A DNA stretch of 64,000 nucleotides, taken from the NCBI RefSeq assembly GCF_001697225.1, contig NZ_CP014671.1, positions 1,922,001 through 1,986,000 on the forward strand, in the 5' to 3' direction. Under the pieces are notes generated by a model. That model worked only from the letters and a program-made list of their open reading frames with translations, had not been told where the DNA came from and searched no databases. Source of the stretch: Immundisolibacter cernigliae. GTDB lineage: Bacteria; Pseudomonadota; Gammaproteobacteria; Immundisolibacterales; Immundisolibacteraceae. Shown here piece after piece: positions 1,010 through 14,307 of the stretch; position 1 is the first letter of the stretch, and every line of letters starts with the position of its first letter. The translations under genes were made by a program, and so were the position numbers.

Positions 1010-2062
1010 TCAGCGCAAGGCCGGCATCACGTCGCGCGCGAACAGTTGCAACGTGCGCGCCACCTGCCACTCGGCCTGGCCGCCAAAATCGGCCATCAGC
1101 GCCAGCTCCTGGAAATCGTAATGACGCTCGCGAAAACGCTGCAACCAGGGGATGAACTGGCTGGGCGTGCCGACGAAGGCAATGTCGTTGGCCAGCACCG
1201 ACTCGAAGGTGTATTCCTTCATCTGGTTCAGGAAGCCGCCGGCGTAGAAGTGGAAGCCACCGCCGCGCAGACGCTCCTTGACCTCCTCGTTATTGATCGA
1301 TTCCTGCGGTACCACCAGGTTGGCGTAGCTGCGCATCATCGGCTCGCGCGCCTCGCGCAGGGCAGTGGCCTCGTCATCGGCCAGGAACACCGGCACCACC
1401 AGGCCGACCTGCGGCGTGTTGCCAGCTTCCTTTGCCGCCGCGGTATAGGCATTGACCGCTTCGGTAAACAGCGGCGGTGGCGCCGCGCCAACCACCACAC
1501 CGCCGCCGCGCCGGCCAGCGTCGCCAAACACGCGCGCGCTGGTGCCGGTCTGGAAGATTTTCAGGCTCGGCTGCAGCGGCTTTGGCACCACCTCGACATC
1601 GCGCACGTTGTAGTGCTTCCCTTCAAAAGAGAAGCGCTCGTTGCTCCAGGCGCGCTGCAGGATTTCGAGCGATTCCTCGTACAGGCCGATGCTGTCGGCC
1701 ATCGGCACGCTGGCCGGGTCGTACAGCCAGCCGTGACCGCGGCCTACACCGACTTCCAGCCGCCCGTCCGTGAGGTGATCGCACTGCGCGATTTCGGCGG
1801 CCAGCACCATTGGATTGTGTACCGGCAGGGTGTGGCACATGGCCCGAAAGCGGATGTTTTTCGAGCGCTGCGCTGCGGCGGCGAAGAACGCCAGTGGGTT
1901 GACCGAAATGGAGAAGGTGGGGAAGAAGTGATGTTCCAGGGTCATGAATACGTCATAACCGAGCGCATCGCCCAGCTCCACGCTGCGCAGGGTCTCGTCA
2001 TAGCGCTGCTTGTAGTTGGCGCCGGGCGAGGCCTGGATTTCGTTGTAGATACCGAACTTCAC
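1010..2062 (-). CDS. LLM-class flavin-dependent monooxygenase
   Basis: A 350-residue luciferase-like (bacterial luciferase superfamily) TIM-barrel protein. The N-terminus MKFGIYNEI, the EHHF segment near residue 43 and the strands with GVGRGHG near 128 are typical of the family, which uses reduced FMN or F420 to oxygenate or oxidise small substrates. The GTG start at 2062 has a good GGAG 6 nt upstream. It is 11 nt downstream of the Rieske oxygenase gene, so the two are almost certainly co-transcribed and probably act on the same substrate. The electron source is not encoded next to it; family members usually rely on a separate flavin reductase. Substrate unknown. Confidence 0.85.
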   Translation of the reverse strand: MKFGIYNEIQASPGANYKQRYDETLRSVELGDALGYDVFMTLEHHFFPTFSISVNPLAFFAAAAQRSKNIRFRAMCHTLPVHNPMVLAAEIAQCDHLTDGRLEVGVGRGHGWLYDPASVPMADSIGLYEESLEILQRAWSNERFSFEGKHYNVRDVEVVPKPLQPSLKIFQTGTSARVFGDAGRRGGGVVVGAAPPPLFTEAVNAYTAAAKEAGNTPQVGLVVPVFLADDEATALREAREPMMRSYANLVVPQESINNEEVKERLRGGGFHFYAGGFLNQMKEYTFESVLANDIAFVGTPSQFIPWLQRFRERHYDFQELALMADFGGQAEWQVARTLQLFARDVMPALR

Positions 2063-3400: not shown

Positions 3401-4540
3401 TCAGGGTTTGAGCGTATCGGACCGCACCGCGGACGCGCGGTGATTGCCGGTCAGGGCCATGGCGACGTCCAGTTCCTGGCGCAGGATGGCCAGCACGCGC
3501 TCGACGCCGCCCTGCCCGCCGGCGCCCAGGCCGTACAGCGCCGCCTTGCCGATCATGCAGGCACGCGCGCCTAGCGCCAGGGCTTTCAGGATGTCGGCAC
3601 CGCTCCGCACGCCGCTGTCGAGGATGACGTCCGCGCTGGTACTCACGGCATCGACCACGCCCGCCAGCGCGCTGATGGTGGACGGCGCGCCGTCCAGCTG
3701 CCGCCCGCCGTGGTTGGACACGATGATGCCGTCAGCCCCGGCGGCAACCGCCTGGCGGGCATCGTCCGGATGCAGAATGCCCTTGACTAGCAGCGGCAGG
3801 TCCCACTCGGCGCGCAGCCAGTCCAGATCGGCCCACGAAATACTGGGATCGATCTGCGTGTTCATGAAGGTACTCAGCGCGATGACGTTGCTGTCCTGGC
3901 CGCCCCAACCGACCAGGTTGCCCAGCGTCAAGCCACGGTGCGGCGCCATGCGCCACAGCCAGGCCGGGTGGCGCAGCAGATCGAGCGCGGTGCGGCGCGT
4001 GAAACGCGGCGGCACGGTGAAGCCGTTGTGGATGTCCTTCTCGCGCTTGCCGCCGCGGGTCAGGTCGACCGTCACCACCAGCGCCCGGTAGCCGGCGGCG
4101 CGGGCACGCTGCAGCAGGCTGCGGGCGAATTCGCGGTCGCGAAAGATATAAAGCTGGAACCACAAATTGCCCGCCGCAGCGTCCATCACCGCTTCCAGCG
4201 AATGGCTGGCGGCGGTGGACAGCACAAACGGAATACCGGCCGCCCGGGCGGCGCGCGCCAGGGCCAGCTCGCCTTCCGGGCGCACCAGGCCGCACAGGCC
4301 CATGGGCGCGATCAGCAGCGGCAGGGCAAGCTGCTCGCCCAGCAGCGTGGTGGACAGATCGACCTGGCTGACGTCGGTCAACACCCGCGGCGCGAAACGC
4401 AGCGGCTCGAAGTCGGCGGTATTGGCCCGCAGGGTGATCTCGCGCTCGGCGCCGCCGTCAACGAAGTCGAACACCATGCGCGGCAGGTAGCGCTTCGCCT
4501 GGCGGCGCAGGTCATCGACACTGGCGCAGACAGCGCTCAC
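3401..4540 (-). CDS. FMN-dependent alpha-hydroxy acid dehydrogenase/oxidase
   Basis: A 379-residue member of the L-lactate dehydrogenase/glycolate oxidase/mandelate dehydrogenase family, which oxidises (S)-2-hydroxy acids to 2-keto acids. The catalytic His277 and substrate-binding Arg280 lie in SNHGGRQLDG, with Lys254 in the LLVKGI FMN strand. The start is GTG at 4540: its GTGA overlaps the TGA of the DUF971 gene, and the N-terminus VSAVCASVDDLRRQAKRYLPR matches the family length. The longer open frame upstream is a shadow of the DUF971 gene. It is last in the pdxA-like/phosphatase/DUF971 unit. Substrate (lactate, mandelate or a pathway intermediate) cannot be decided. Confidence 0.9.
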   Translation of the reverse strand: MSAVCASVDDLRRQAKRYLPRMVFDFVDGGAEREITLRANTADFEPLRFAPRVLTDVSQVDLSTTLLGEQLALPLLIAPMGLCGLVRPEGELALARAARAAGIPFVLSTAASHSLEAVMDAAAGNLWFQLYIFRDREFARSLLQRARAAGYRALVVTVDLTRGGKREKDIHNGFTVPPRFTRRTALDLLRHPAWLWRMAPHRGLTLGNLVGWGGQDSNVIALSTFMNTQIDPSISWADLDWLRAEWDLPLLVKGILHPDDARQAVAAGADGIIVSNHGGRQLDGAPSTISALAGVVDAVSTSADVILDSGVRSGADILKALALGARACMIGKAALYGLGAGGQGGVERVLAILRQELDVAMALTGNHRASAVRSDTLKP

Positions 4541-4902
4541 GGCTGGCGTGACTGGCCCGCCTCGGCCAGGCGATCCAGATACCGCTGCCATAGTGTGTCC
4601 TGCTCGCGGCCCAGGCGGTATAGATAATCGAAGCTGAACAGGCCGCTGTCGTGGCCGTCCGAGAAGGTGATCTGCAGCGCGTAATGACCGATCGGGTCCA
4701 GCCGGGTGATGGCGACGTCCCGCTTGCCGGGCACCAGCACCGCCTGGCCAGGCCCGTGGCCCTGCACCTCGGCCGACGGCGAGTGCACCCGCAGATACTC
4801 GGCCGGCAGATGGAACGCGCTGCCGTCGGCAAAGCGCACCTCGAGCGTGCGCGTCGCCTGGTGCAGGACAATGTCGGACAGGTCCGGCGTCGCGGCGGCC
4901 AT
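4537..4902 (-). CDS. DUF971 (gamma-butyrobetaine hydroxylase-like N-terminal domain) protein
   Basis: A 121-residue single-domain protein. The pattern of an N-terminal DIVLHQATRTLEVRFADG, a central ELPAEYLRVHSPSAE-like segment and a C-terminal ITFSDGHDSGLFSFDYLYRLG is characteristic of DUF971, the small domain also found at the N-terminus of gamma-butyrobetaine hydroxylases. Stand-alone copies are often found near Fe-S cluster or ubiquinone genes, but their role is not settled. The start ATG at 4902 abuts the stop of the phosphatase gene without a gap, and its stop overlaps the GTG of the hydroxy acid oxidase, so translation is probably coupled. Confidence 0.85.
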   Translation of the reverse strand: MAAATPDLSDIVLHQATRTLEVRFADGSAFHLPAEYLRVHSPSAEVQGHGPGQAVLVPGKRDVAITRLDPIGHYALQITFSDGHDSGLFSFDYLYRLGREQDTLWQRYLDRLAEAGQSRQP

Positions 4903-5592
4903 TCAGGCGCCCCAGTCCCGGCACAGGGCGAGCAGGTCGGCCGGCGAGTCGATGCAGGCGTCGGCGCCCCAGCGGGTCACATCTTCACCGGGCGCGATAT
5001 AGCCGTAACCGGCCACCACGGTGCGTGTGCCGGCGGCCTGGCCGGCGGCGATGTCGCGTGGATCGTCGCCCACGAACACGCTGGCCGCCGGCGCCACTCC
5101 CAGCCGCTCGCAGGCCAGCAGCACGCCTTCGGGATCGGGCTTTGGCAGGCGTAGCAGGTCGGGCGTGATCAGGCAGTCGGCGTCCGGCCACACACCCAGC
5201 GCCCGCAGCAGCGGCGTCGCGAAGCGCTCCAGCTTGTTGGTGACGATGCCGATGCGCAGACCCCGCCCGCGCAACTGGTCAAGCACGTCCTCAAAGCCAT
5301 CGAACACCGTTGCCTGGCGGGCGCAGGACTCTGCATAAATGGTCAGGAACCGATCCCGCAACCGGGCGTAATCCGCGTCCTGCGGTCCGATGTCGAGCGC
5401 ACAGGCGAGCATGCCGCGCGCGCCCTGCGGTACGTAGGGCCGCAGCTCGGACACGGCCAGCGGCGCCATGCCCTGCTCATCGCGCAGGCGGTTCAACGCG
5501 TGCGCAAGGTCCGCCGCGGTGTCGGCCAGCGTGCCGTCCAGGTCCAGCAGGACCGCCGCCAGCGGCGCTGCCTGGCGGGCGGCCACACTCAC
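4903..5592 (-). CDS. gph: HAD-family phosphatase, phosphoglycolate phosphatase-like
   Basis: A 229-residue haloacid dehalogenase-type hydrolase. Motif I is LLDLDGTLADT (nucleophile Asp near residue 17), motif II is the VTNKL Thr, and motif III/IV is the KPDPEGV Lys and FVGDDPRD Asp pair, with a helical cap between I and II. It fits Gph-type 2-phosphoglycolate phosphatases, though N-acetylmuramate-6-phosphate phosphatase (MupP) has a very similar layout, so the symbol is provisional. The start is GTG at 5592, overlapping the PdxA-like stop in a GTGA. In this operon it may dephosphorylate a pathway intermediate rather than serve housekeeping. Confidence 0.8.
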   Translation of the reverse strand: MSVAARQAAPLAAVLLDLDGTLADTAADLAHALNRLRDEQGMAPLAVSELRPYVPQGARGMLACALDIGPQDADYARLRDRFLTIYAESCARQATVFDGFEDVLDQLRGRGLRIGIVTNKLERFATPLLRALGVWPDADCLITPDLLRLPKPDPEGVLLACERLGVAPAASVFVGDDPRDIAAGQAAGTRTVVAGYGYIAPGEDVTRWGADACIDSPADLLALCRDWGA

Positions 5593-6578
5593 GCGGCGAC
5601 GGCGTCCTTGTGAAAGCCCTTGCCGGACGCCAGATTGGCGGCCTGACGCATGGCGGTCAGCATCATCTCGTGGCTGGCGATGCCCTTGCCGACGATGTCG
5701 AAGGCCGTGCCGTGCGCCACCGACATGTGGATGTACGGCGTGCCCAGGATCATGGCGCAGTTGCCGACGAAGCCCCAGGTCTTTACCGCGATGTGGCCCT
5801 GGTCGTGGTACATGGCCAGCACCACGTCGTACTCACCGTCGATGCACCAGCGGAACACGCTGTCCGGCGAGGCCGGGCCGGTCACGTTGATGCCCTCGGC
5901 CCTGGCCCGCTCCACGCCGGGCGCAATCTGGGTCTTGTCCTCTTCGCCGTAGGCATGGGCATTCAGGCCCGCCACCACGATGCGCGGGTTGGGAATGCCC
6001 CAGCGCGTGAAATCGTCGTGGATGGTGCGCAGCGCCTTGTAGACCAGATCCGGCGCGATGATGTCGCACACCTGACGCAGCGGGATGTGGTCGGTCAGGT
6101 GCACGACACGCAGGGGGCCCGTGATCAGGAACAGATAGGTCTTGCCGACTTCGACGCTGACCACCTGATCGAACTTGTCCGCCATCTTCAGGGCATCGGT
6201 GTTGATCGGGCCCATGATGGTGGCCTGCACCTTGCCGGCCAGGGCCAGCGCGTCCATTTCCTTCAGCCAGGCGGCGCAGGCGCGCCCGCACTCGGCGTTG
6301 GCCTTGGCTGGGGTGATGAATTTCGGATCCAGCTGGCCGGTGTCGTAAACGTCGATCACGGCCGGGTCCAGACCCGCACCCTCGACATCGCTGACACGGC
6401 GGACCTTCAACTTCAGCCCGAGCATGTCTACCGCCTGCTGCACGGATTCGGTACAGCCAAACACCACCGGCCGGCACTGCTCGTACATGCCGCCCAGCGC
6501 CAGTGACTTGACCACCACTTCCGGCCCGATGCCGCACGGATCACCGGTCATGGTGGCGACCACGGGTTTGTTGGACAT
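5589..6578 (-). CDS. PdxA-family NAD-dependent dehydrogenase (catabolic-type paralogue)
   Basis: A 329-residue PdxA-fold dehydrogenase. The three divalent-metal His ligands of the family are present: His164 (TDHIPLR), His208 (GLNAHAYGE) and His258 (MYHDQGHI). However, the GHTE substrate-phosphate segment of true 4-hydroxythreonine-4-phosphate dehydrogenases is replaced around residues 138-145 (DQVVSVEV), and the last motif reads HDQGHIAVK, closer to what I recall of terephthalate dihydrodiol dehydrogenase TphB. A role in dehydrogenating a cis-dihydrodiol or hydroxy acid of the adjoining pathway is therefore more likely than pyridoxal phosphate synthesis. AAGGAG precedes the ATG at 6578. It heads the unit with phosphatase, DUF971 and hydroxy acid oxidase genes. 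Confidence 0.8.
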   Translation of the reverse strand: MSNKPVVATMTGDPCGIGPEVVVKSLALGGMYEQCRPVVFGCTESVQQAVDMLGLKLKVRRVSDVEGAGLDPAVIDVYDTGQLDPKFITPAKANAECGRACAAWLKEMDALALAGKVQATIMGPINTDALKMADKFDQVVSVEVGKTYLFLITGPLRVVHLTDHIPLRQVCDIIAPDLVYKALRTIHDDFTRWGIPNPRIVVAGLNAHAYGEEDKTQIAPGVERARAEGINVTGPASPDSVFRWCIDGEYDVVLAMYHDQGHIAVKTWGFVGNCAMILGTPYIHMSVAHGTAFDIVGKGIASHEMMLTAMRQAANLASGKGFHKDAVAA

Positions 6579-6704: not shown

Positions 6705-7094
6705 TCAGTCGTTGCGAACCAGCGCCAGTTTCAGGAACAGGCCCTTGAGGTTGTAGTCGATCTTGTTGTCCACCAGGGCGGCGACCCGGTTCAGGGTGCA
6801 GACCAGGTTGAATTTCTGGCCGTGAATCATGTAGCCGTCGGCCGGCATCAGGCTGTGCGGGTTGGTCTTGCGGTCTCGGTAATAGTCGATTTCGAGCACG
6901 CCCTTGATGGACAGGCCCATGGCTTCGGTTGTCAGCATGAGCTGGCGGGCCCGCTCCTCGCTGTCGAAGCCCAGGTACTCGACCAGCCGCGCCGGGTAGG
7001 CGATGGCGTTGATGAAGCGCGACTCCTGCCAGCGCAGCGCCCCCACCACGCCGTCCAGTTCCATCAGATCCTGCAGTTTCAGCGGTTCAGACAT
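6705..7094 (-). CDS. Hypothetical protein, 129 aa, roadblock/DUF2173-like (weak)
   Basis: A 129-residue soluble protein. The N-terminal pattern LQDLMELDGVVGALRW resembles the start of roadblock/LC7-type and DUF2173 proteins, but this is a weak, memory-based similarity. The centre carries an LEIDYYRDRKTNP segment and the C-terminus is a basic helix (GLFLKLALVRND). There is no signal peptide or membrane segment. The ATG at 7094 was chosen over the 58-codon longer frame, whose extra residues lack protein-like composition and enter the divergent intergenic region. It stands alone between two divergent catabolic units and ends at a strong hairpin. Confidence 0.6.
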   Translation of the reverse strand: MSEPLKLQDLMELDGVVGALRWQESRFINAIAYPARLVEYLGFDSEERARQLMLTTEAMGLSIKGVLEIDYYRDRKTNPHSLMPADGYMIHGQKFNLVCTLNRVAALVDNKIDYNLKGLFLKLALVRND

Positions 7095-7294: not shown

Positions 7295-8116
7295 ATGTCC
7301 AGTTACGAGTGCATCAACCTGACCATCGACGGCGACGTCGCCACCATCCAGTTCAACCGCCCGGAAAAGAAGAACTGCATGAGCCCGACGCTGCACAACA
7401 ACGTGCGCAATGCCTTGGTGGAGGTGGAAAAAGCGCGCGTCAAGGTGCTGGTGATCACCGGAATCAAGGACGCGTTCTGCGCCGGCATGGACCTCGAGCA
7501 ATGCTTCTTCGAACCCTTCGACGATCCGCAGCGCATGGCCGCCATCAACGACGACGTGTTCACCTGGTTCCAGCATCTGAAGAAGTTCCCGGCGGTCACG
7601 ATTGCCAAGGTCAACGGCTGGTGCTTCGGTGGCGGCATGGAACTGGCCGGCATCTGCGACATCGCCATCGTGGCCGATGAATCCACCTGGGGCTTGTCCG
7701 AGGTCAACTTCGGCATCTTCCCCGGCGGCGGCACATCCTGGGCCTACGCGCACAACATCCCGTCGCGCAAGAAGGCGCTGTACTACGGCCTGACTGGCGA
7801 AACCTTCACTGGCAAGCAGGCCGAGGAAATCGGTTACGCCACCAAGTCGGTGCCGCTGGCGCAGCTGGACGCCGAGACCGACCGCGTGGTGAAGATGCTC
7901 AGCCGTCTGGGCCGCACCGTGCTGCGCAAGACCAAGGAGGTCTACGAGAAGGTCAAGTGGATGGACTTCGAGGCCGCCGTCGACTACGAGATGGCCAAGC
8001 TGTGGGAACTTTCGCGCGAGACCAACGACGACTGGATCCGCACCGCGCTGGCCTCGTTCAAGCGGCGCGAGTTCAAGCCCGGCACGCAGTCCTACAAGCT
8101 GACCAAGGACGTCTGA
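7295..8116 (+). CDS. Crotonase resembling hydroxycinnamoyl-CoA hydratase-lyase
   Basis: A 273-residue crotonase-fold enzyme. Its length and motifs such as NRPEKKNCMSPTL, NGWCFGGGM and GLSEVNFGIFPGG closely follow feruloyl-CoA hydratase-lyase (vanillin synthase), which hydrates hydroxycinnamoyl-CoA and cleaves it to an aldehyde and acetyl-CoA. The catalytic Glu (Glu136) and the Tyr of the C-terminal DYxxAK segment (Tyr231) are present, but the Tyr that normally follows AGMDLKE is Cys70 here (AGMDLEQCFF). The reaction could therefore be plain hydration of a different enoyl-CoA. The ATG at 7295 is chosen because the longer frame covers the upstream regulatory region. It starts the plus-strand unit; the acyl-CoA dehydrogenase gene follows 3 nt later. 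Confidence 0.85.
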   Translation: MSSYECINLTIDGDVATIQFNRPEKKNCMSPTLHNNVRNALVEVEKARVKVLVITGIKDAFCAGMDLEQCFFEPFDDPQRMAAINDDVFTWFQHLKKFPAVTIAKVNGWCFGGGMELAGICDIAIVADESTWGLSEVNFGIFPGGGTSWAYAHNIPSRKKALYYGLTGETFTGKQAEEIGYATKSVPLAQLDAETDRVVKMLSRLGRTVLRKTKEVYEKVKWMDFEAAVDYEMAKLWELSRETNDDWIRTALASFKRREFKPGTQSYKLTKDV

Positions 8117-8119
8117 GTC

Positions 8120-9277
8120 ATGGACTTCTCGCTCAGTCAGGATCAACAGATGCTGGTCGACCTGTGCGAGAAGATCGCGCAGGGCTTCGAGGACAGCTAC
8201 TGGCAGAAGATCGACGAGGAGTACGGGTTCCCGCGCGAGTTCTGGAGCACCCTGGTCGAGCAGGGCATCCTGGGCATCACCATTCCCGAGGAATACGGCG
8301 GCAGTGGCCTGGGCATGGTCGAGATGTGCCTGGCCGCCGAGGCGCTGTCCAGCAATGGCGGCGACTGCGGCGGCATGTTCGTCGGCGGGCCGGTGTTTGG
8401 CGGCTGCCTGATCAACTCGGCCGGTACGCCCGAGCAGAAGGCCAAGTACCTGCCCGGCATCGTCAAGGGTGATCTGTGGTCCGGTGGCTTCACGGAGCCG
8501 AACTCCGGCTCCAACATCACCACCATCCGCACCGAGGCGCGCAAGGAAGATGGGCACTATCTGGTCAAGGGCCAGAAGATGTACATCTCCAACATCAAGG
8601 TGGCCAGCCACATCGGCATCATGTGCCGCACCTCGCCCTACGACCCGGCGCGGCGCACCGAGGGCGTGTCCCTGCTGGTCGGTGACCTGCCCAATCCGGG
8701 CATCGAGGCACGGCCGCTCAAGAAGATGGGCAGCCACTTCATGGACACCAACGCGGTGTTCTTCGACGACTTCAAGGTTCCGGAAAGGAACCTGGTCGGC
8801 GAGGAGGGCAAGGGCTGGAAGGCGCTGTACGCGGTGCTCAATCCGGAGCGGCTGGCGATTGCCGCCAGCTGCATCGGCACCGGCAACTACCTGATCCGCA
8901 AGGCCGTGCAGTACGCCAGCGAGCGTTCCATCTGGGGCAAGCCGCTGGCCACCCACCAGGGCCTGCAGTTCCCGCTGGCCGAAGCGCGCATCCAGCTCGA
9001 ATGCGCGCGCCTGAAAGTCTTCGAAGCCGCCTGGCTGTACGACCAGGGCAGGGAATGCGGCGTGCAGGCGACGTCGGCCAAGTACGCGGCGGCGCATGCC
9101 TCGCTGTATGCAGCCGATCGGGCCATCCAGACCCTGGGTGGCGCCGGCTACATCAGCGAGTCGGGCATCGAGCGGCACTACCGCAACCTGCGCCTGAACC
9201 GCATCGCGCCGGTCACCGACGAGATGACGCTCAACTACATTGCCCAGCACGATCTGGGCATGCCACGCTCGTACTGA
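8120..9277 (+). CDS. Acyl-CoA dehydrogenase
   Basis: A 385-residue FAD-dependent acyl-CoA dehydrogenase. It has the N-terminal helical domain, the central beta-domain with the FTEPNSGSN flavin/substrate segment, and a C-terminal helical domain with GGAGYISESGIER, where the Glu aligns with the catalytic base of medium-chain enzymes. It would introduce an alpha,beta double bond into an acyl-CoA and pass electrons to electron-transfer flavoprotein. Its gene is 3 nt behind the crotonase gene, so dehydrogenation and hydration of the same thioester are likely consecutive. Chain-length or ring preference cannot be judged. Confidence 0.9.
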   Translation: MDFSLSQDQQMLVDLCEKIAQGFEDSYWQKIDEEYGFPREFWSTLVEQGILGITIPEEYGGSGLGMVEMCLAAEALSSNGGDCGGMFVGGPVFGGCLINSAGTPEQKAKYLPGIVKGDLWSGGFTEPNSGSNITTIRTEARKEDGHYLVKGQKMYISNIKVASHIGIMCRTSPYDPARRTEGVSLLVGDLPNPGIEARPLKKMGSHFMDTNAVFFDDFKVPERNLVGEEGKGWKALYAVLNPERLAIAASCIGTGNYLIRKAVQYASERSIWGKPLATHQGLQFPLAEARIQLECARLKVFEAAWLYDQGRECGVQATSAKYAAAHASLYAADRAIQTLGGAGYISESGIERHYRNLRLNRIAPVTDEMTLNYIAQHDLGMPRSY

Positions 9278-9376: not shown

Positions 9377-10939
9377 ATGACACGCGACACCAACCTGCGC
9401 GAAATGCTGCACCGCGCGGCCAAGTGGTTTCCGAACAACGAAGCCGTGGTGGACGACCTGTACCGTTACACCTACGCGCAGCTGAAGGATCAGGTGCAGC
9501 GCATGGCCAAGCTGCTGCACACCCGCGGCGTGCGCAAGGGCGACCGCGTGGCGCTGCTGATGTACCCGTCGGTGCAGCACGTGGTGGCGCTGTTCGGCGC
9601 CTTCGAGCTGGGCGCCATCCCGTCCGCATTGCACCTGCGCGAATCGCCCAAGATTCTGGCGGCCGTGCTCGAACGCCTTTCCCCGCGGGTGCTGGTCTAC
9701 GACGGCGCGCTCGACGAACTGGCCGAGGAGCTGCGCCGCCTGGCGCCCCTGGTCAGCCACGGCATCCGCGCCGTATCGGAACTGACCCCGCCGGACAAGA
9801 TCGGCGGCCCCGATCCGATCATCCCGCGCGACCTGGCCGACTACACGCTCGATTTCGAGCCTATGCCGATCTTCAGCCACGACACGTCGATGATCGCCCT
9901 GTCGTCCGGCACCACCGGCGTGCCCAAGGGCATCATGCACACCCACCGCACGCAGATCGAAAGCGCGCGTGGCGGCGCCTTCGTGTTCGACGCCAACCCC
10001 CACGCGGCCATCATCAACGCCTCCACCACGGCATTCATCGGCTGGTACAACTGCACCATGCCGTACCTGAACGCGGGCGGCAAAGTGGTGTTCATGGCGG
10101 TCTGGGATCCGAAGCGCTTCCTGCAAAAAGTGCAGGACGAGCGGGCGACCTTCGTATTCCTGGTGCCAACCGTGTGGCGCATGCTGTTCCGGGAGAACCT
10201 GGACCACTACGACCTGTCGGCTGTGCGCAAGGCCGGCTACGCCGGCGAGCCGATGGACACCCGCACCATGGGCCTGGTGCGCGACAAGATCTGCAACAAC
10301 GTCATCAACATCTACGGCACCACCGAAACCGGCTCCTGCGCCGGCGGCACCATCATGTTCAACGAGGACTACCGCGACCCCAGCAAGCAGGAAAGCGTCG
10401 GCAAGCCGTTCATCAACGCCGACGTGCGCGTCATCCGGCCCGGCGGTGCCCTGACCGATGAAGTGCCCCCCGGCGAGGAAGGCGAGGTCATCATCCGCGG
10501 TCTTTCGGTGGCCGATCAGGTGTGGGACCAGCCGGCCCTGGCCCGCAAGATCTTCGAGGACGGCTGGTGGCGCTCCGGCGACATGGGCGTGCTGGATGAG
10601 GACAACTACCTGTACCTGCGCGGGCGCATCGACGACATGATCATCTCCGGCGGCATCAACGTGCTGCCGAGTCAGGTCGAGGAGGCCGTGCTCAGCCACC
10701 CGGCGGTCAGCGAGTGCGTGGTGATCGGCATTCCGGACGAACAATGGGGCCAGCGCATCGTCGCCTACGTGGTGGCCAAGGAGCCGGTGACGCCCGAGCA
10801 GCTCAAGGCCTACGTCGAGGCCACCGACCTTTCCCACTACAAGCGCCCGCGCGAATACCGCCTGGTCACCGAACTGCCGCGCGGCAACACCGGCAAGGTC
10901 AGCCGGCGCATGTTGCGCTCACAAGTGGCCGGCAAATAA
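9377..10939 (+). CDS. AMP-dependent acyl/aryl-CoA ligase
   Basis: A 520-residue adenylate-forming ligase that would activate a carboxylic acid to its CoA thioester using ATP, the entry step of the pathway. The core motifs are SSGTTGVPKGIMHTHR (phosphate loop), NIYGTTETG (A5), WWRSGDMG and the hinge RGRIDDMIISGG, and the C-terminal catalytic Lys in GNTGKVSRR. The 99-bp gap after the acyl-CoA dehydrogenase gene shows no evident terminator, so it is probably the same operon. The substrate may be a fatty, aromatic or alicyclic acid; the binding-pocket residues do not let me choose. Confidence 0.9.
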   Translation: MTRDTNLREMLHRAAKWFPNNEAVVDDLYRYTYAQLKDQVQRMAKLLHTRGVRKGDRVALLMYPSVQHVVALFGAFELGAIPSALHLRESPKILAAVLERLSPRVLVYDGALDELAEELRRLAPLVSHGIRAVSELTPPDKIGGPDPIIPRDLADYTLDFEPMPIFSHDTSMIALSSGTTGVPKGIMHTHRTQIESARGGAFVFDANPHAAIINASTTAFIGWYNCTMPYLNAGGKVVFMAVWDPKRFLQKVQDERATFVFLVPTVWRMLFRENLDHYDLSAVRKAGYAGEPMDTRTMGLVRDKICNNVINIYGTTETGSCAGGTIMFNEDYRDPSKQESVGKPFINADVRVIRPGGALTDEVPPGEEGEVIIRGLSVADQVWDQPALARKIFEDGWWRSGDMGVLDEDNYLYLRGRIDDMIISGGINVLPSQVEEAVLSHPAVSECVVIGIPDEQWGQRIVAYVVAKEPVTPEQLKAYVEATDLSHYKRPREYRLVTELPRGNTGKVSRRMLRSQVAGK

Positions 10940-10942
10940 GCC

Positions 10943-11374
10943 ATGACAACGCCCTCCGCCAAGCCGGACCTGACCACGATCGACCTCGACCGCCCACCGA
11001 CCATGGCGCAGTTCGGCGGCTACATCGCCGAATCGGCGCCCAACTTCGCGCGCCTGGTGTTCCCGTTCGACCTGCGCTGGTGCAATCCGCGCGGCTCGGT
11101 GCAGGGCGGCGTGATGGCCGTATATGTTGACGAAGCAGTCGGCTACGCCATGATGGCGACCTTCCCGGATCTGAAAACCGTGTGGACCACCACCAGCCTG
11201 ACGCTGAACTACCTGCGCCCGATCACCGGCGGCGACATCACCGCCATCGGCAGGGTCATCCGCGTCGGCGCCCGCACCGGCTATGTGGAGGGCGAAATCC
11301 TGGACGCCGAGGGCAGCCTGTGCGTGAAGGCGGTGTCCGGCTTGCTGATCCTGAAGCGTCCCGACGCCGCCTGA
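10943..11374 (+). CDS. PaaI-type hotdog thioesterase
   Basis: A 143-residue single hotdog-fold protein of the PaaI/YiaI thioesterase type, with the helix-entry sequence NPRGSVQGGVMAVYVDEAVGYAM, whose GG and Asp are the usual catalytic region, and a C-terminal GYVEGEILDAEG strand. It would hydrolyse acyl- or aryl-CoA thioesters, perhaps releasing CoA from dead-end intermediates. The ATG is 3 nt after the ligase stop. A 72-nt gap follows before the monooxygenase. Confidence 0.85.
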   Translation: MTTPSAKPDLTTIDLDRPPTMAQFGGYIAESAPNFARLVFPFDLRWCNPRGSVQGGVMAVYVDEAVGYAMMATFPDLKTVWTTTSLTLNYLRPITGGDITAIGRVIRVGARTGYVEGEILDAEGSLCVKAVSGLLILKRPDAA

Positions 11375-11446
11375 GCTCGCGTTCAACGCCGGCGGCGGAT
11401 GGTTCTGTCACGGCGGAGGGCGCCGCAACCGACAAGGAGGAGAGCC

Positions 11447-13060
11447 ATGCCCGACACCGAACACCACTCGCTGGATGCCGTCGTCATCGGCGCCGGATTC
11501 GGCGGCATGTACGCCCTGCACCTGCTGCGTGGACTGGGACTGAAGGTGCGGGCCTACGACGACGCCGACAGCGTCGGCGGCACCTGGGCCTGGAACCGCT
11601 ACCCGGGCGCGCGGGTGGATTTTCCCGGCGGGCCCTACTACTGCTACACCTTCTCGCGCGAACTGGTGCGCGACTGGGACTGGCCGGAAAGCCAGCCCGA
11701 CCAGCCCTCGGTGCTGGCCTATCTGAACCATGTCGCGGACCGCTTCGACCTGCGGCGGGACATCGAACTGCGCGCCCGCGTCACCGCCGCCCGCTATGAC
11801 GAGGCCGCGCAGCGCTGGCAGCTGGACATCGCCACCGGCGAGCGCGTCAGCGCGCGGTTCCTGATCTGTGCCACCGGCGCCCTGTCGGCCGCCAACCGTC
11901 CCAACATTCCCGGCCTGGACCGCTTCGCCGGCGAGTGCTACCACACCGGCCTGTGGCCGCAGCGGCCAGTCGACTTCGCCGGCAAGCGGGTCGGCATCAT
12001 CGGCACCGGCTCGTCCGGCGTGCAGGCCATCCCGGTCATCGCCCGCACGGCGGCGCACTTGAGCGTGTTCCAGCGCACGCCCCAGTACGCCATCCCGGCG
12101 CGCAACCGCCCGCTCGACGCGGCGTTCAGGCGAGACACCCGCGAACAGTGGCCGCTGCTGCGCGCCATGATGCTGGAAACGCTGGCCGGCACGCCGTTCC
12201 CGTCGCCGACCCGCTCGGCGCTGGAGGATTCCCCACAGCAGCGCGAGGCGCTCTACGAGGAACACTGGCAACGGGGCGGGCTCGGCATCGCGTTTGGCAC
12301 CTACGGCGACCTGATGAGCAACGCCGAGTCCAACGCGACGCTGTGCGAGTTCGTGCGCGAAAAAATCCGTCGCGCGGTGCACGACCCGGACATCGCCCGC
12401 CGCCTGCTGCCCGATTACCCCATCGGCACCAAGCGCCTGATCCTGGACGAGGGTTACTACGAAACCTACAACCGATCCAACGTCACCCTGGTCGACCTGC
12501 GCGAGAACCCGATCATCGAGATCACGCCGCAGGGCGTGCGCACCGAGCGCGGCGAGCATGCGCTCGACATGCTGGTCCTGGCCACCGGCTTTGACGCCAT
12601 CACCGGCGCGCTGACGCGCCTGAACCCGCGCGGGCGCGGCGGCCTGCCGCTGGCCGAGGCCTGGGCCGGGCGGTTCAGCACCTACCTTGGGCTCGCCGTG
12701 CGCGGCTTTCCGAACCTGTTCATGATCCACGGCCCGGAGTCGCCGTCGGTGCTGTACAACATGCCGCTGGGCGCCGAACGACAGGCCGAGTGGATCCGCG
12801 ACTGCATCGCCGACCTGCAAGAGCGCAGCCTGGGCGGCATCGAAGCCGCCCCCGGCGTCGACCTGGAGTGGGGCAGGACCGTGGCCGACATCGCCGACCA
12901 GACCCTGTTTCCGCGCACCGACTCCTGGTACACCGGCGCCAACATACCGGGCAAACACCGCCAGTTTCCGGTGCACCTGGACGCGCCGCAGTATTTCGCC
13001 ACACTGCAGCAGGTGGCCGCCGCCGGTTATGCGGGTTTCAGCCTGGAACCGGCACGCTGA
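11447..13060 (+). CDS. Baeyer-Villiger-type flavin monooxygenase
   Basis: A 537-residue class B flavoprotein monooxygenase. It shows an N-terminal FAD Rossmann motif GAGFGG (15-20), a second NADPH motif GTGSSG (186-191), and between them the Baeyer-Villiger fingerprint FAGECYHTGLWP (160-171). Such enzymes insert oxygen next to a ketone to give an ester or lactone, using NADPH. The start ATG at 11447 has AAGGAGG 6 nt upstream, which rules out the 16-codon longer frame. As the last gene of the unit it suggests that the pathway passes through a ketone, such as a ring-opened or alicyclic intermediate. Closest subgroup (cyclohexanone, phenylacetone or steroid type) is undetermined. Confidence 0.9.
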   Translation: MPDTEHHSLDAVVIGAGFGGMYALHLLRGLGLKVRAYDDADSVGGTWAWNRYPGARVDFPGGPYYCYTFSRELVRDWDWPESQPDQPSVLAYLNHVADRFDLRRDIELRARVTAARYDEAAQRWQLDIATGERVSARFLICATGALSAANRPNIPGLDRFAGECYHTGLWPQRPVDFAGKRVGIIGTGSSGVQAIPVIARTAAHLSVFQRTPQYAIPARNRPLDAAFRRDTREQWPLLRAMMLETLAGTPFPSPTRSALEDSPQQREALYEEHWQRGGLGIAFGTYGDLMSNAESNATLCEFVREKIRRAVHDPDIARRLLPDYPIGTKRLILDEGYYETYNRSNVTLVDLRENPIIEITPQGVRTERGEHALDMLVLATGFDAITGALTRLNPRGRGGLPLAEAWAGRFSTYLGLAVRGFPNLFMIHGPESPSVLYNMPLGAERQAEWIRDCIADLQERSLGGIEAAPGVDLEWGRTVADIADQTLFPRTDSWYTGANIPGKHRQFPVHLDAPQYFATLQQVAAAGYAGFSLEPAR

Positions 13061-13323: not shown

Positions 13324-14307
13324 TCAGGACGCACGGAGGGTGTGCCGCGCCCGAAGGCGCCAGCCGGCAATCACCACGTTGGCCAGGCCGAACAGCGTGA
13401 ACAGCTGCGCCTGGTTCTTGGCCAGCCCCCGGTAACGCGCCTTGCGGTGCTTGAACAGGTTCTTGATGATGTGAAACGGATGCTCGACCTTGGCCCGCAG
13501 GCTCGCCTTGACCTGTTCGATCCGTTCCTGCAGGCGGCCCAGCGCGTCATCGGGCAGGGCCCGGCGCACGCCCGGGCGCAGCGCCACGTGCCAGGTGACC
13601 GGCGTGTCCCGATTCTCCGGGCGCTTGGCTACGCCCTGGTAGCCGGCATCGCCCAGCGCGTCCGTTTCCTGCCCGTGCAGCAGGGCGTGCGCCTGGGTCA
13701 CGTCGTTGACGTTGGCCGGCGTGGTCAGCACCGTGTGCACCAGCCCCGAGTCCAGGTCGACCCCGATGTGCGCCTTCATGCCAAAGTGCCACTGGTTCCC
13801 CTTCTTGGCCTGATGCATGTCCGGATCGCGCGCCCGGTCGCGGTTCTTGGTCGACGGCGGGGCGGCGATCAGCGTCGCATCCACGAGGGTGCCCTCACGC
13901 AGCAGCAGGCCCTGGCGGGCCAGGTGATCGCGAATCGTCTCGAAGATCACCCGGCTCAGACCCTGATCTTCCAGCAGGCGGCGGAACTTCAGCAGCGTGG
14001 TCGCATCCGGCGCCGCCTCGCGGGCCAGGTCGATGCCGATGAAGCAGCGGATGGCGTGGCTGTCGTACACGGCGTCCTCGATGCCCTCGTCCGACAGCCC
14101 AAAGCACTGCTGCGCCACGTACATGCGCAGCATGCGCGACAGCCCCAGCGGCGGGCGGCCCGGGCCCTTGCCGGCCGGGTAGAACGGCGCCAGCGCCGCC
14201 TCCAGCTGCGCCCACGGCGTCACCGCCTGCAGCTGCGCCAGGAAGCGCTCGCGGCGCGTCTGCTTCTTCTTGCCGGCGTACTCGAGGTCGGAAAAGCTCG
14301 TTTGCAT
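13324..14307 (-). CDS. IS5-family transposase
   Basis: A 327-residue DDE transposase covering most of the element. The N-terminal DUF772-type region (WAQLEAALAPFYP, GLSRMLRMYVAQQC, GLSDEGIEDAVYDS) is followed by the catalytic core: first Asp in LVDATLIAAP, second Asp in ALGDAGYQGV, and Glu in KVEHPFHIIK. No internal stop or frameshift is seen, so the enzyme is probably active. The start ATG at 14307 lies 91 bp inside the right end. Confidence 0.92.
   Translation of the reverse strand: MQTSFSDLEYAGKKKQTRRERFLAQLQAVTPWAQLEAALAPFYPAGKGPGRPPLGLSRMLRMYVAQQCFGLSDEGIEDAVYDSHAIRCFIGIDLAREAAPDATTLLKFRRLLEDQGLSRVIFETIRDHLARQGLLLREGTLVDATLIAAPPSTKNRDRARDPDMHQAKKGNQWHFGMKAHIGVDLDSGLVHTVLTTPANVNDVTQAHALLHGQETDALGDAGYQGVAKRPENRDTPVTWHVALRPGVRRALPDDALGRLQERIEQVKASLRAKVEHPFHIIKNLFKHRKARYRGLAKNQAQLFTLFGLANVVIAGWRLRARHTLRAS

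Follow-up and report, generated by a model that had tools for sequence, protein, structure and literature searches.

The gene at positions 5589-6578 was studied within a 64,000-nucleotide stretch of the Immundisolibacter cernigliae genome, the whole of which is called the window here. Its open reading frame is on the minus strand, begins with an ATG at 6578, has a stop codon that ends at 5589 and encodes a protein of 329 aa. The gene belongs to a minus-strand run in which a small protein is followed by the PdxA-like protein, a HAD protein, a DUF971 protein, an FMN-dependent hydroxyacid dehydrogenase, a Rieske alpha subunit and an LLM flavin enzyme (Table 1). Gaps within the run are -4 to 126 bp, with 4-bp overlaps between the stop of the PdxA-like gene and the HAD gene and between the DUF971 and FMN-hydroxyacid dehydrogenase genes. 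Judged from the sequence, the run is plausibly a catabolic operon, as the first-pass annotation of this DNA had predicted. No Ring_hydroxyl_B (beta-subunit) match was found near the window's Rieske gene, whose product is 27-29% identical to the Rieske proteins of the KK22 locus. The product of the divergent enoyl-CoA hydratase family (ECH) gene scored 286.7 against the NCBIfam p-hydroxycinnamoyl-CoA hydratase/lyase model, above the cut-off of 276. The small DUF2173-like protein at the head of the run recurs beside the orthologue in another genome (G002). To the left of the window start (L008:5105-10110), the minus-strand genes continue with an NDP-forming acyl-CoA ligase, an FlK-like thioesterase, a short-chain fatty acid transporter and a glyoxalase-type protein. 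An IS5-type transposase-like ORF was recognised by eye near the CoA-pathway genes, at 13324-14307 on the minus strand of the window.

Table 1. Genes and assigned features at the locus of the PdxA-like gene (positions in the window).
Feature	Position	Strand	Basis or remark
LLM-class flavin oxidoreductase	1010..2062	-	Domain match
Rieske oxygenase alpha subunit, 401 aa	2074..3279	-	Domain match
FMN-dependent alpha-hydroxyacid dehydrogenase (lactate dehydrogenase type)	3401..4540	-	Domain match
GBBH_N/DUF971 domain protein	4537..4902	-	Domain match
HAD phosphatase-like (PGP/MupP-like, under those NCBIfam cut-offs)	4903..5592	-	Overlaps PdxA-like stop by 4 bp
PdxA-family dehydrogenase, short-loop clade, 329 aa	5589..6578	-	Pfam, alignments, tree
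Small protein, weak DUF2173 match (under cut-off)	6705..7094	-	Upstream gene, head of run
Enoyl-CoA hydratase family (ECH)	7295..8116	+	Divergent from PdxA-like gene
Acyl-CoA dehydrogenase	8120..9277	+	Domain match
AMP-forming acyl-CoA ligase	9377..10939	+	Domain match
4HBT thioesterase	10943..11374	+	Domain match

The first-pass annotation had called the product a PdxA-family enzyme. The ORF is real, and its protein matches the Pfam PdxA model (PF04166) over residues 33-313 at 241.6 bits (cut-off 27; E 1.4e-71). It also matched seven NCBIfam models of the PdxA type, among them the one for canonical PdxA (TIGR00557; 227.7 bits against a cut-off of 290.35), and fell under the cut-off of each. 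The solved structures that it matched are those of PdxA2, PdxA and TphB (4aty). An AlphaFold model of the protein (P0001), made with four alignment rows, had a mean pLDDT of 57.3, and no claim made here rests on it.

The host genome is a single contig of 3,243,537 bases, and I. cernigliae is, we take it, the present name of strain TR3.2. This strain was placed in 'Pyrene Group 2', a lineage linked to pyrene degradation (PMC5054325). Four PdxA-family genes were found in the genome, namely the 5589-6578 gene, two paralogues with 48 and 47% identity to it and a copy with 32% identity (L004). The L004 copy scored 412.9 bits against TIGR00557, compared to 206-239 for the other three, and sits between surA and ksgA in the order lptD-surA-pdxA-ksgA. 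A separate canonical pdxA is present, then, and it lies next to ksgA, where the first-pass annotation had proposed to look for one. The 5589-6578 product scored below the TIGR00557 cut-off, the canonical copy is elsewhere in the genome, and the protein falls in a separate clade of the family tree (described below). It is thus well supported that this product is not PdxA and that an automatic pdxA name is misleading, as had been anticipated.

We compared conserved positions in two alignments, one of 20 rows (A1) and one of 33 author-chosen rows that was also used for the tree (19 short-loop rows, three TphB, two canonical PdxA and nine further family members). His164, His208 and His258, previously read as kept metal ligands, align with H166, H211 and H266 of E. 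coli PdxA and are invariant in 20/20 and 33/33 rows, respectively. The substrate-contact (GHTE) segment had been described as changed, and the change goes further than that: in the 33-row set the 329-aa protein lacks eight alignment columns at this place, and a second deletion removes five residues after the second metal His. The contacts of E. coli PdxA with 4-hydroxythreonine-4-phosphate are presumably H136, T137, K274, N283 and R292, letters that were confirmed in the E. coli sequence. In the 329-aa protein H136 and T137 are deleted, N283 is replaced by A and R292 by H, and K274 alone is kept. The protein therefore shares the family, the metal triad and the K274 equivalent with PdxA of E. 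coli and of its own genome (L004), but differs from both in the missing GHTE, the changed N283 and R292 positions and the missing 5-residue loop, as well as in its locus and in an overall identity of 30-33%. The last motif was found to read HDQGHIAVK as stated, but HDQGHI is not diagnostic, being common to the PdxA2 and TphB rows of A1.

The two deletions mark a group of proteins. The 8-column GHTE deletion is found in 18 of the 19 short-loop rows, the remaining row (G006_L027) lacking five of those eight columns, and the 5-column deletion after the second metal His is found in all 19; neither occurs in the other 14 rows. Relative to E. coli, H136 is absent from 19/19 short-loop rows, T137 is absent from 18 and W in one, N283 is lost in 19/19 and R292 in 17/19. 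TphB rows read GYPN, GYPS or GYPG at the GHTE position and keep the loop length. In the 33-row tree the 19 short-loop rows form one branch with support of 100/100, or 100/99 after the neighbourhoods of the deletions were dropped, while canonical PdxA and TphB each form one separate branch (100/100 for the three TphB rows, which were named from operon context). The tree with PdxA, PdxA2 and TphB relatives, which the first-pass annotation had called for, hence places the 5589-6578 protein outside canonical PdxA and in a clade of its own. Rows P0001, P0002 and P0003 of the tree are 329, 323 and 320 aa long. Sequences fetched and left out of it are L026 (the G001 copy of a groEL-side paralogue), L032, the viral relatives, the G005 fragment L013 and L093-L097.

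The short-loop clade is rare and well supported. Its members are the three Immundisolibacter paralogues with their sister-genus relatives, the PdxA-annotated genes of pNL1, pLA1, KK22 p1 and S. yanoikuyae pF2, the genes of G350 and G307, both of them genomes from the same class, and the more distant genes of Sphingobium AntQ-1 and Caballeronia zhejiangensis, which sit on long branches and pair with one another, so that their placement is less sure. From synteny, we infer that G350 is a Cycloclasticus and that the clade reaches Cycloclasticus PAH clusters. With the A2 profile at E <= 1e-80 and up to five candidates scored per genome, matches were found in at least 6 of 369 genomes in the class sample and in at least 2 of 398 in the phylum sample; each count includes one genome whose protein is outside the short-loop group (G039 and G609, respectively). 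The G039 (L047) and G609 (L054/L065) proteins exceed the profile threshold and were rejected as members because GHTE and the full loop are present. In the plasmid collection (PLSDB), nine records have at least 42% identity to the KK22 protein, all sphingomonad apart from one Caballeronia, and the next among the matches listed have at most 39%; all nine except a second record of pNL1 were fetched. Plasmid members L095 and L096, which are outside the 33-row set, carry both deletions. L093, L094 and L097 (plasmid relatives from Haladaptatus, Alicyclobacillus and R. antarcticus) were rejected, as they have GHTG or GHTE, a full second loop and an adjoining sugar-acid kinase gene. Scans of viral contigs gave two GHTE-type relatives (L055 and L056, whose contigs recur as L091 and L092) and a further match (L082/L090) that lacks a clean ORF. 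In the two IMG/VR contigs (L055:4712-6912 and L056:4742-6873), a PdxA-family gene for 298-302 aa directly follows an ORF that looks ATP-grasp-like by eye; these contigs are possibly bacterial DNA binned as viral.

We next consider the gene neighbourhoods of the clade. Of the ten clade loci fetched from outside the Immundisolibacter family, nine carry a Rieske alpha gene in the gene run of the PdxA-like gene (L019, L057-L062, L095 and L096), these being pNL1, pLA1, KK22, pF2, C. naphthovorans, ES2-1, AntQ-1, C. zhejiangensis and G350. Six of them are sphingomonad plasmid loci which resemble one another and amount to about one event, so that the independent cases number about four. The tenth locus, L063, covers 6 kb of a 7-kb contig; beside the gene it has just a short Rieske remnant (E 2e-5). 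A Rieske gene was also present at 3/3 TphB loci and at 0/12 other non-clade family loci (L007, L031-L034, L037-L041, L064 and L065), the flanks of the non-clade loci being 1.5 to ~8 kb and often shorter than those of the clade loci. In the closest relatives (KK22, pNL1 and G350) the PdxA-like gene is flanked by oxygenase genes. At the G350 locus (L062) an alpha-beta pair is divergent from the PdxA-like gene, followed by alpha, alpha, beta and extradiol dioxygenase genes. The C. zhejiangensis cluster resembles a p-cumate operon. In it, extradiol and meta-pathway genes come before a Rieske alpha, beta, ferredoxin, PdxA-like and FAD-dependent reductase-like order, which sets the PdxA-like gene inside a four-component dioxygenase set, between the ferredoxin and ferredoxin-reductase-like genes. 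No short-chain dehydrogenase is among the 21 annotated features shown for this locus, in PLSDB tables that can be incomplete. We also considered whether the C. zhejiangensis protein is a CmtB homologue. This was rejected on size, since it has 317 aa compared to the 256-259 aa given for CmtB of LB400 and F1 (PMC5224996), and at most it occupies the same slot.

At the locus in the window, Rieske proximity alone is weak evidence, because the genome holds very many such genes (in 3.24 Mb, 65 matches to Ring_hydroxyl_A and 44 to Ring_hydroxyl_B). By our own arithmetic from the 65 matches, with even spacing assumed, a Rieske gene lies within 5 kb of ~18% of genes by chance. The genome announcement, which used AromaDeg, names just two likely large subunits of ring-hydroxylating dioxygenases. 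Neither of the remaining two short-loop paralogues in the genome shares a gene run with a Rieske gene. The first (L005:8876-9847, minus) has an alpha/beta pair ~5 kb off on the opposite strand; it is directly downstream of ORFs that look groES/groEL-like by eye (10031-12031), as are the copies in L025 and L026, and a DUF2058 gene comes after it. The second (L006:8985-9944, plus), around which no Rieske match was found in 18 kb, is between ORFs that by eye look carbamoyltransferase- and sulfotransferase-like and an epimerase gene, and a CoA ligase lies at a distance of 5 kb.

At their metal site PdxA and TphB act on a hydroxyl that is beta to a carboxylate, and its oxidation allows CO2 loss. 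In the 329-aa protein the metal site is kept and the phosphate grip is gone, so the most economical view is that it carries out this chemistry on an acid that bears no phosphate. A carboxylated cis-dihydrodiol is suggested as the substrate because the clade is accompanied by oxygenases. On balance, we lean towards the view that the 5589-6578 product is a catabolic PdxA-family paralogue which catalyses the metal- and NAD(P)-dependent oxidation of a carboxylated aromatic cis-dihydrodiol, TphB-like but not TphB; we infer the substrate class, the decarboxylation, the cofactor and the effect on the pocket. The earlier suggestion of a dihydrodiol or hydroxy-acid dehydrogenase agrees with the Rieske company of the clade, though it draws on context and chemistry. 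As proposed, the conserved three-His divalent-metal site together with NAD(P) would oxidise the hydroxyl next to the carboxylate-bearing carbon of an aromatic-acid cis-dihydrodiol, yielding a catechol, with CO2 lost when the carboxylate is on a diol carbon. Deletion of the GHTE loop would take away the phosphate grip and so favour a substrate without phosphate, and the two shortened loops would probably widen the pocket for bulkier aromatics. A pathway using all parts of the locus may also be drawn, in which the ligase, dehydrogenase and hydratase/lyase would remove the side chain of an aryl-propenoate, for example a carboxyvinyl PAH acid, which is a known type of PAH metabolite. The aromatic acid would then be oxygenated, and the PdxA-like enzyme would dehydrogenate the resulting diol.

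Published data on clade members bear on this dihydrodiol reading in part. The product of xylL is presumably an SDR. Both xylL and another dihydrodiol dehydrogenase are also carried by pLA1 (PMC3946609), which counts against our reading; the PdxA-like gene NSU_pLA1120 is tabled there among proteins detected on PAHs, with values of -0.274, 0.722 and 0.252 (PMC3946609). For Sphingobium PNB, XylXY are reported to convert benzoate to catechol when cloned in E. coli, and the genes listed for those clones do not include the PdxA-like one (PMC4048848), so that it was not needed for this conversion in that assay. The Cycloclasticus section contains no statement of naphthalene-raised expression for the PdxA-like gene. 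Among the literature passages searched, which cover little of the subscription literature, none reported a measured activity for a protein of this clade, though such work may exist elsewhere.

The conserved neighbours of the orthologue group point in another direction. The HAD gene adjoins the orthologue in 6/6 genomes that carry it (the G005 copy is a contig-end fragment), and the divergent ECH, acyl-CoA dehydrogenase and CoA ligase genes are present in 5/5 genomes with sequence on that side. The Rieske, FMN enzyme and LLM genes are beside the orthologue in only 3/5 genomes, all of one genus; on the two contigs of the sister genus where its neighbourhood can be read, no Rieske gene was found beside it. 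The fully conserved neighbours are thus the HAD and divergent CoA genes, not the Rieske gene, which counts against a dihydrodiol substrate. Other points against it are the Rieske-free runs of the two other short-loop paralogues, the low identity of the window's Rieske protein to those of KK22 with no beta-subunit match nearby, and the separate branch of TphB. The conserved CoA-pathway neighbours would suit a beta-hydroxy acid dehydrogenase that acts on a non-cyclic, non-phosphorylated acid of the adjoining CoA pathway (e.g. 3-aryl-3-hydroxypropanoate) and gives a beta-keto acid that decarboxylates, with no dihydrodiol involved. The ECH score above the hydroxycinnamoyl-CoA hydratase/lyase cut-off is consistent with such a role, as is the G006 paralogue in L029, which has another ECH-type gene directly after it. 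We nevertheless consider this explanation unlikely, given the Rieske genes at nine of the ten clade loci outside the family and the position of the nearest relatives among oxygenase genes. The pNL1, pLA1, KK22 p1 and G350 genes belong to the same short-loop clade, share both deletions and are 57-59% identical to the 329-aa protein; they stand between Rieske genes, whereas its own orthologue group stands beside the HAD gene and the divergent CoA-pathway set.

The same HAD gene, which overlaps the stop codon of the PdxA-like gene, could instead indicate a PdxA2-like enzyme that dehydrogenates a sugar-acid 4-phosphate, the phosphorylated product then being acted on by the HAD protein. The genome has two more HAD proteins of the same type, so the one encoded here may be dedicated. 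PdxA2/D-threonate 4-phosphate dehydrogenases (6e85, 2hi1) are among the best PDB sequence matches and also read HDQGHI. This role is quite improbable, however, as PdxA2-type rows keep GHTE or GHTG where the 329-aa protein has lost the phosphate-contact segment, the score against PRK03371 (D-threonate-4-phosphate dehydrogenase) was 211.5 compared to a cut-off of 583, and no four-carbon acid sugar kinase is among the scanned neighbours, unlike at four PdxA2-type loci, which are accompanied by sugar-acid kinases. It is more improbable still that the protein is a true TphB, that is, a terephthalate or phthalate dihydrodiol dehydrogenase. TphB (terephthalate 1,2-cis-dihydrodiol dehydrogenase) shares with it the family, the three metal His, the loss of GHTE and a Rieske catabolic setting, but the three TphB rows (4aty is not in the tree) are 31-34% identical to it, keep full loops, branch separately and come from tph-type operons, and no operon of the tphA2-A3-B-A1 type is among the neighbours in the window. 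A second, redundant 4-hydroxythreonine-4-phosphate dehydrogenase is hardly credible: the family, the metal site and the automatic naming of relatives as PdxA would agree with it, but four of the five presumed substrate contacts are lost, the TIGR00557 cut-off is not reached and the genome has its canonical pdxA.

For the clade as a whole, we tentatively suggest, with rather more reserve than for the single protein, that the short-loop proteins may be a non-SDR, metal-dependent, probably decarboxylating PdxA-fold class for PAH-derived carboxylated cis-dihydrodiols, and so a missing step of high-molecular-weight PAH breakdown. One gene recurs under the name pdxA in a number of gene sets for PAH degradation; Immundisolibacter, Cycloclasticus and the sphingomonad plasmids carry members annotated in this way. 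If the suggestion is true, this would be a recurring annotation error open to correction, and there would be a second, unrelated enzyme class for such a step, recognised by its two deletions. Pyrene-type pathways need a decarboxylating diol dehydrogenation, and the 5589-6578 protein is a candidate for this reaction.
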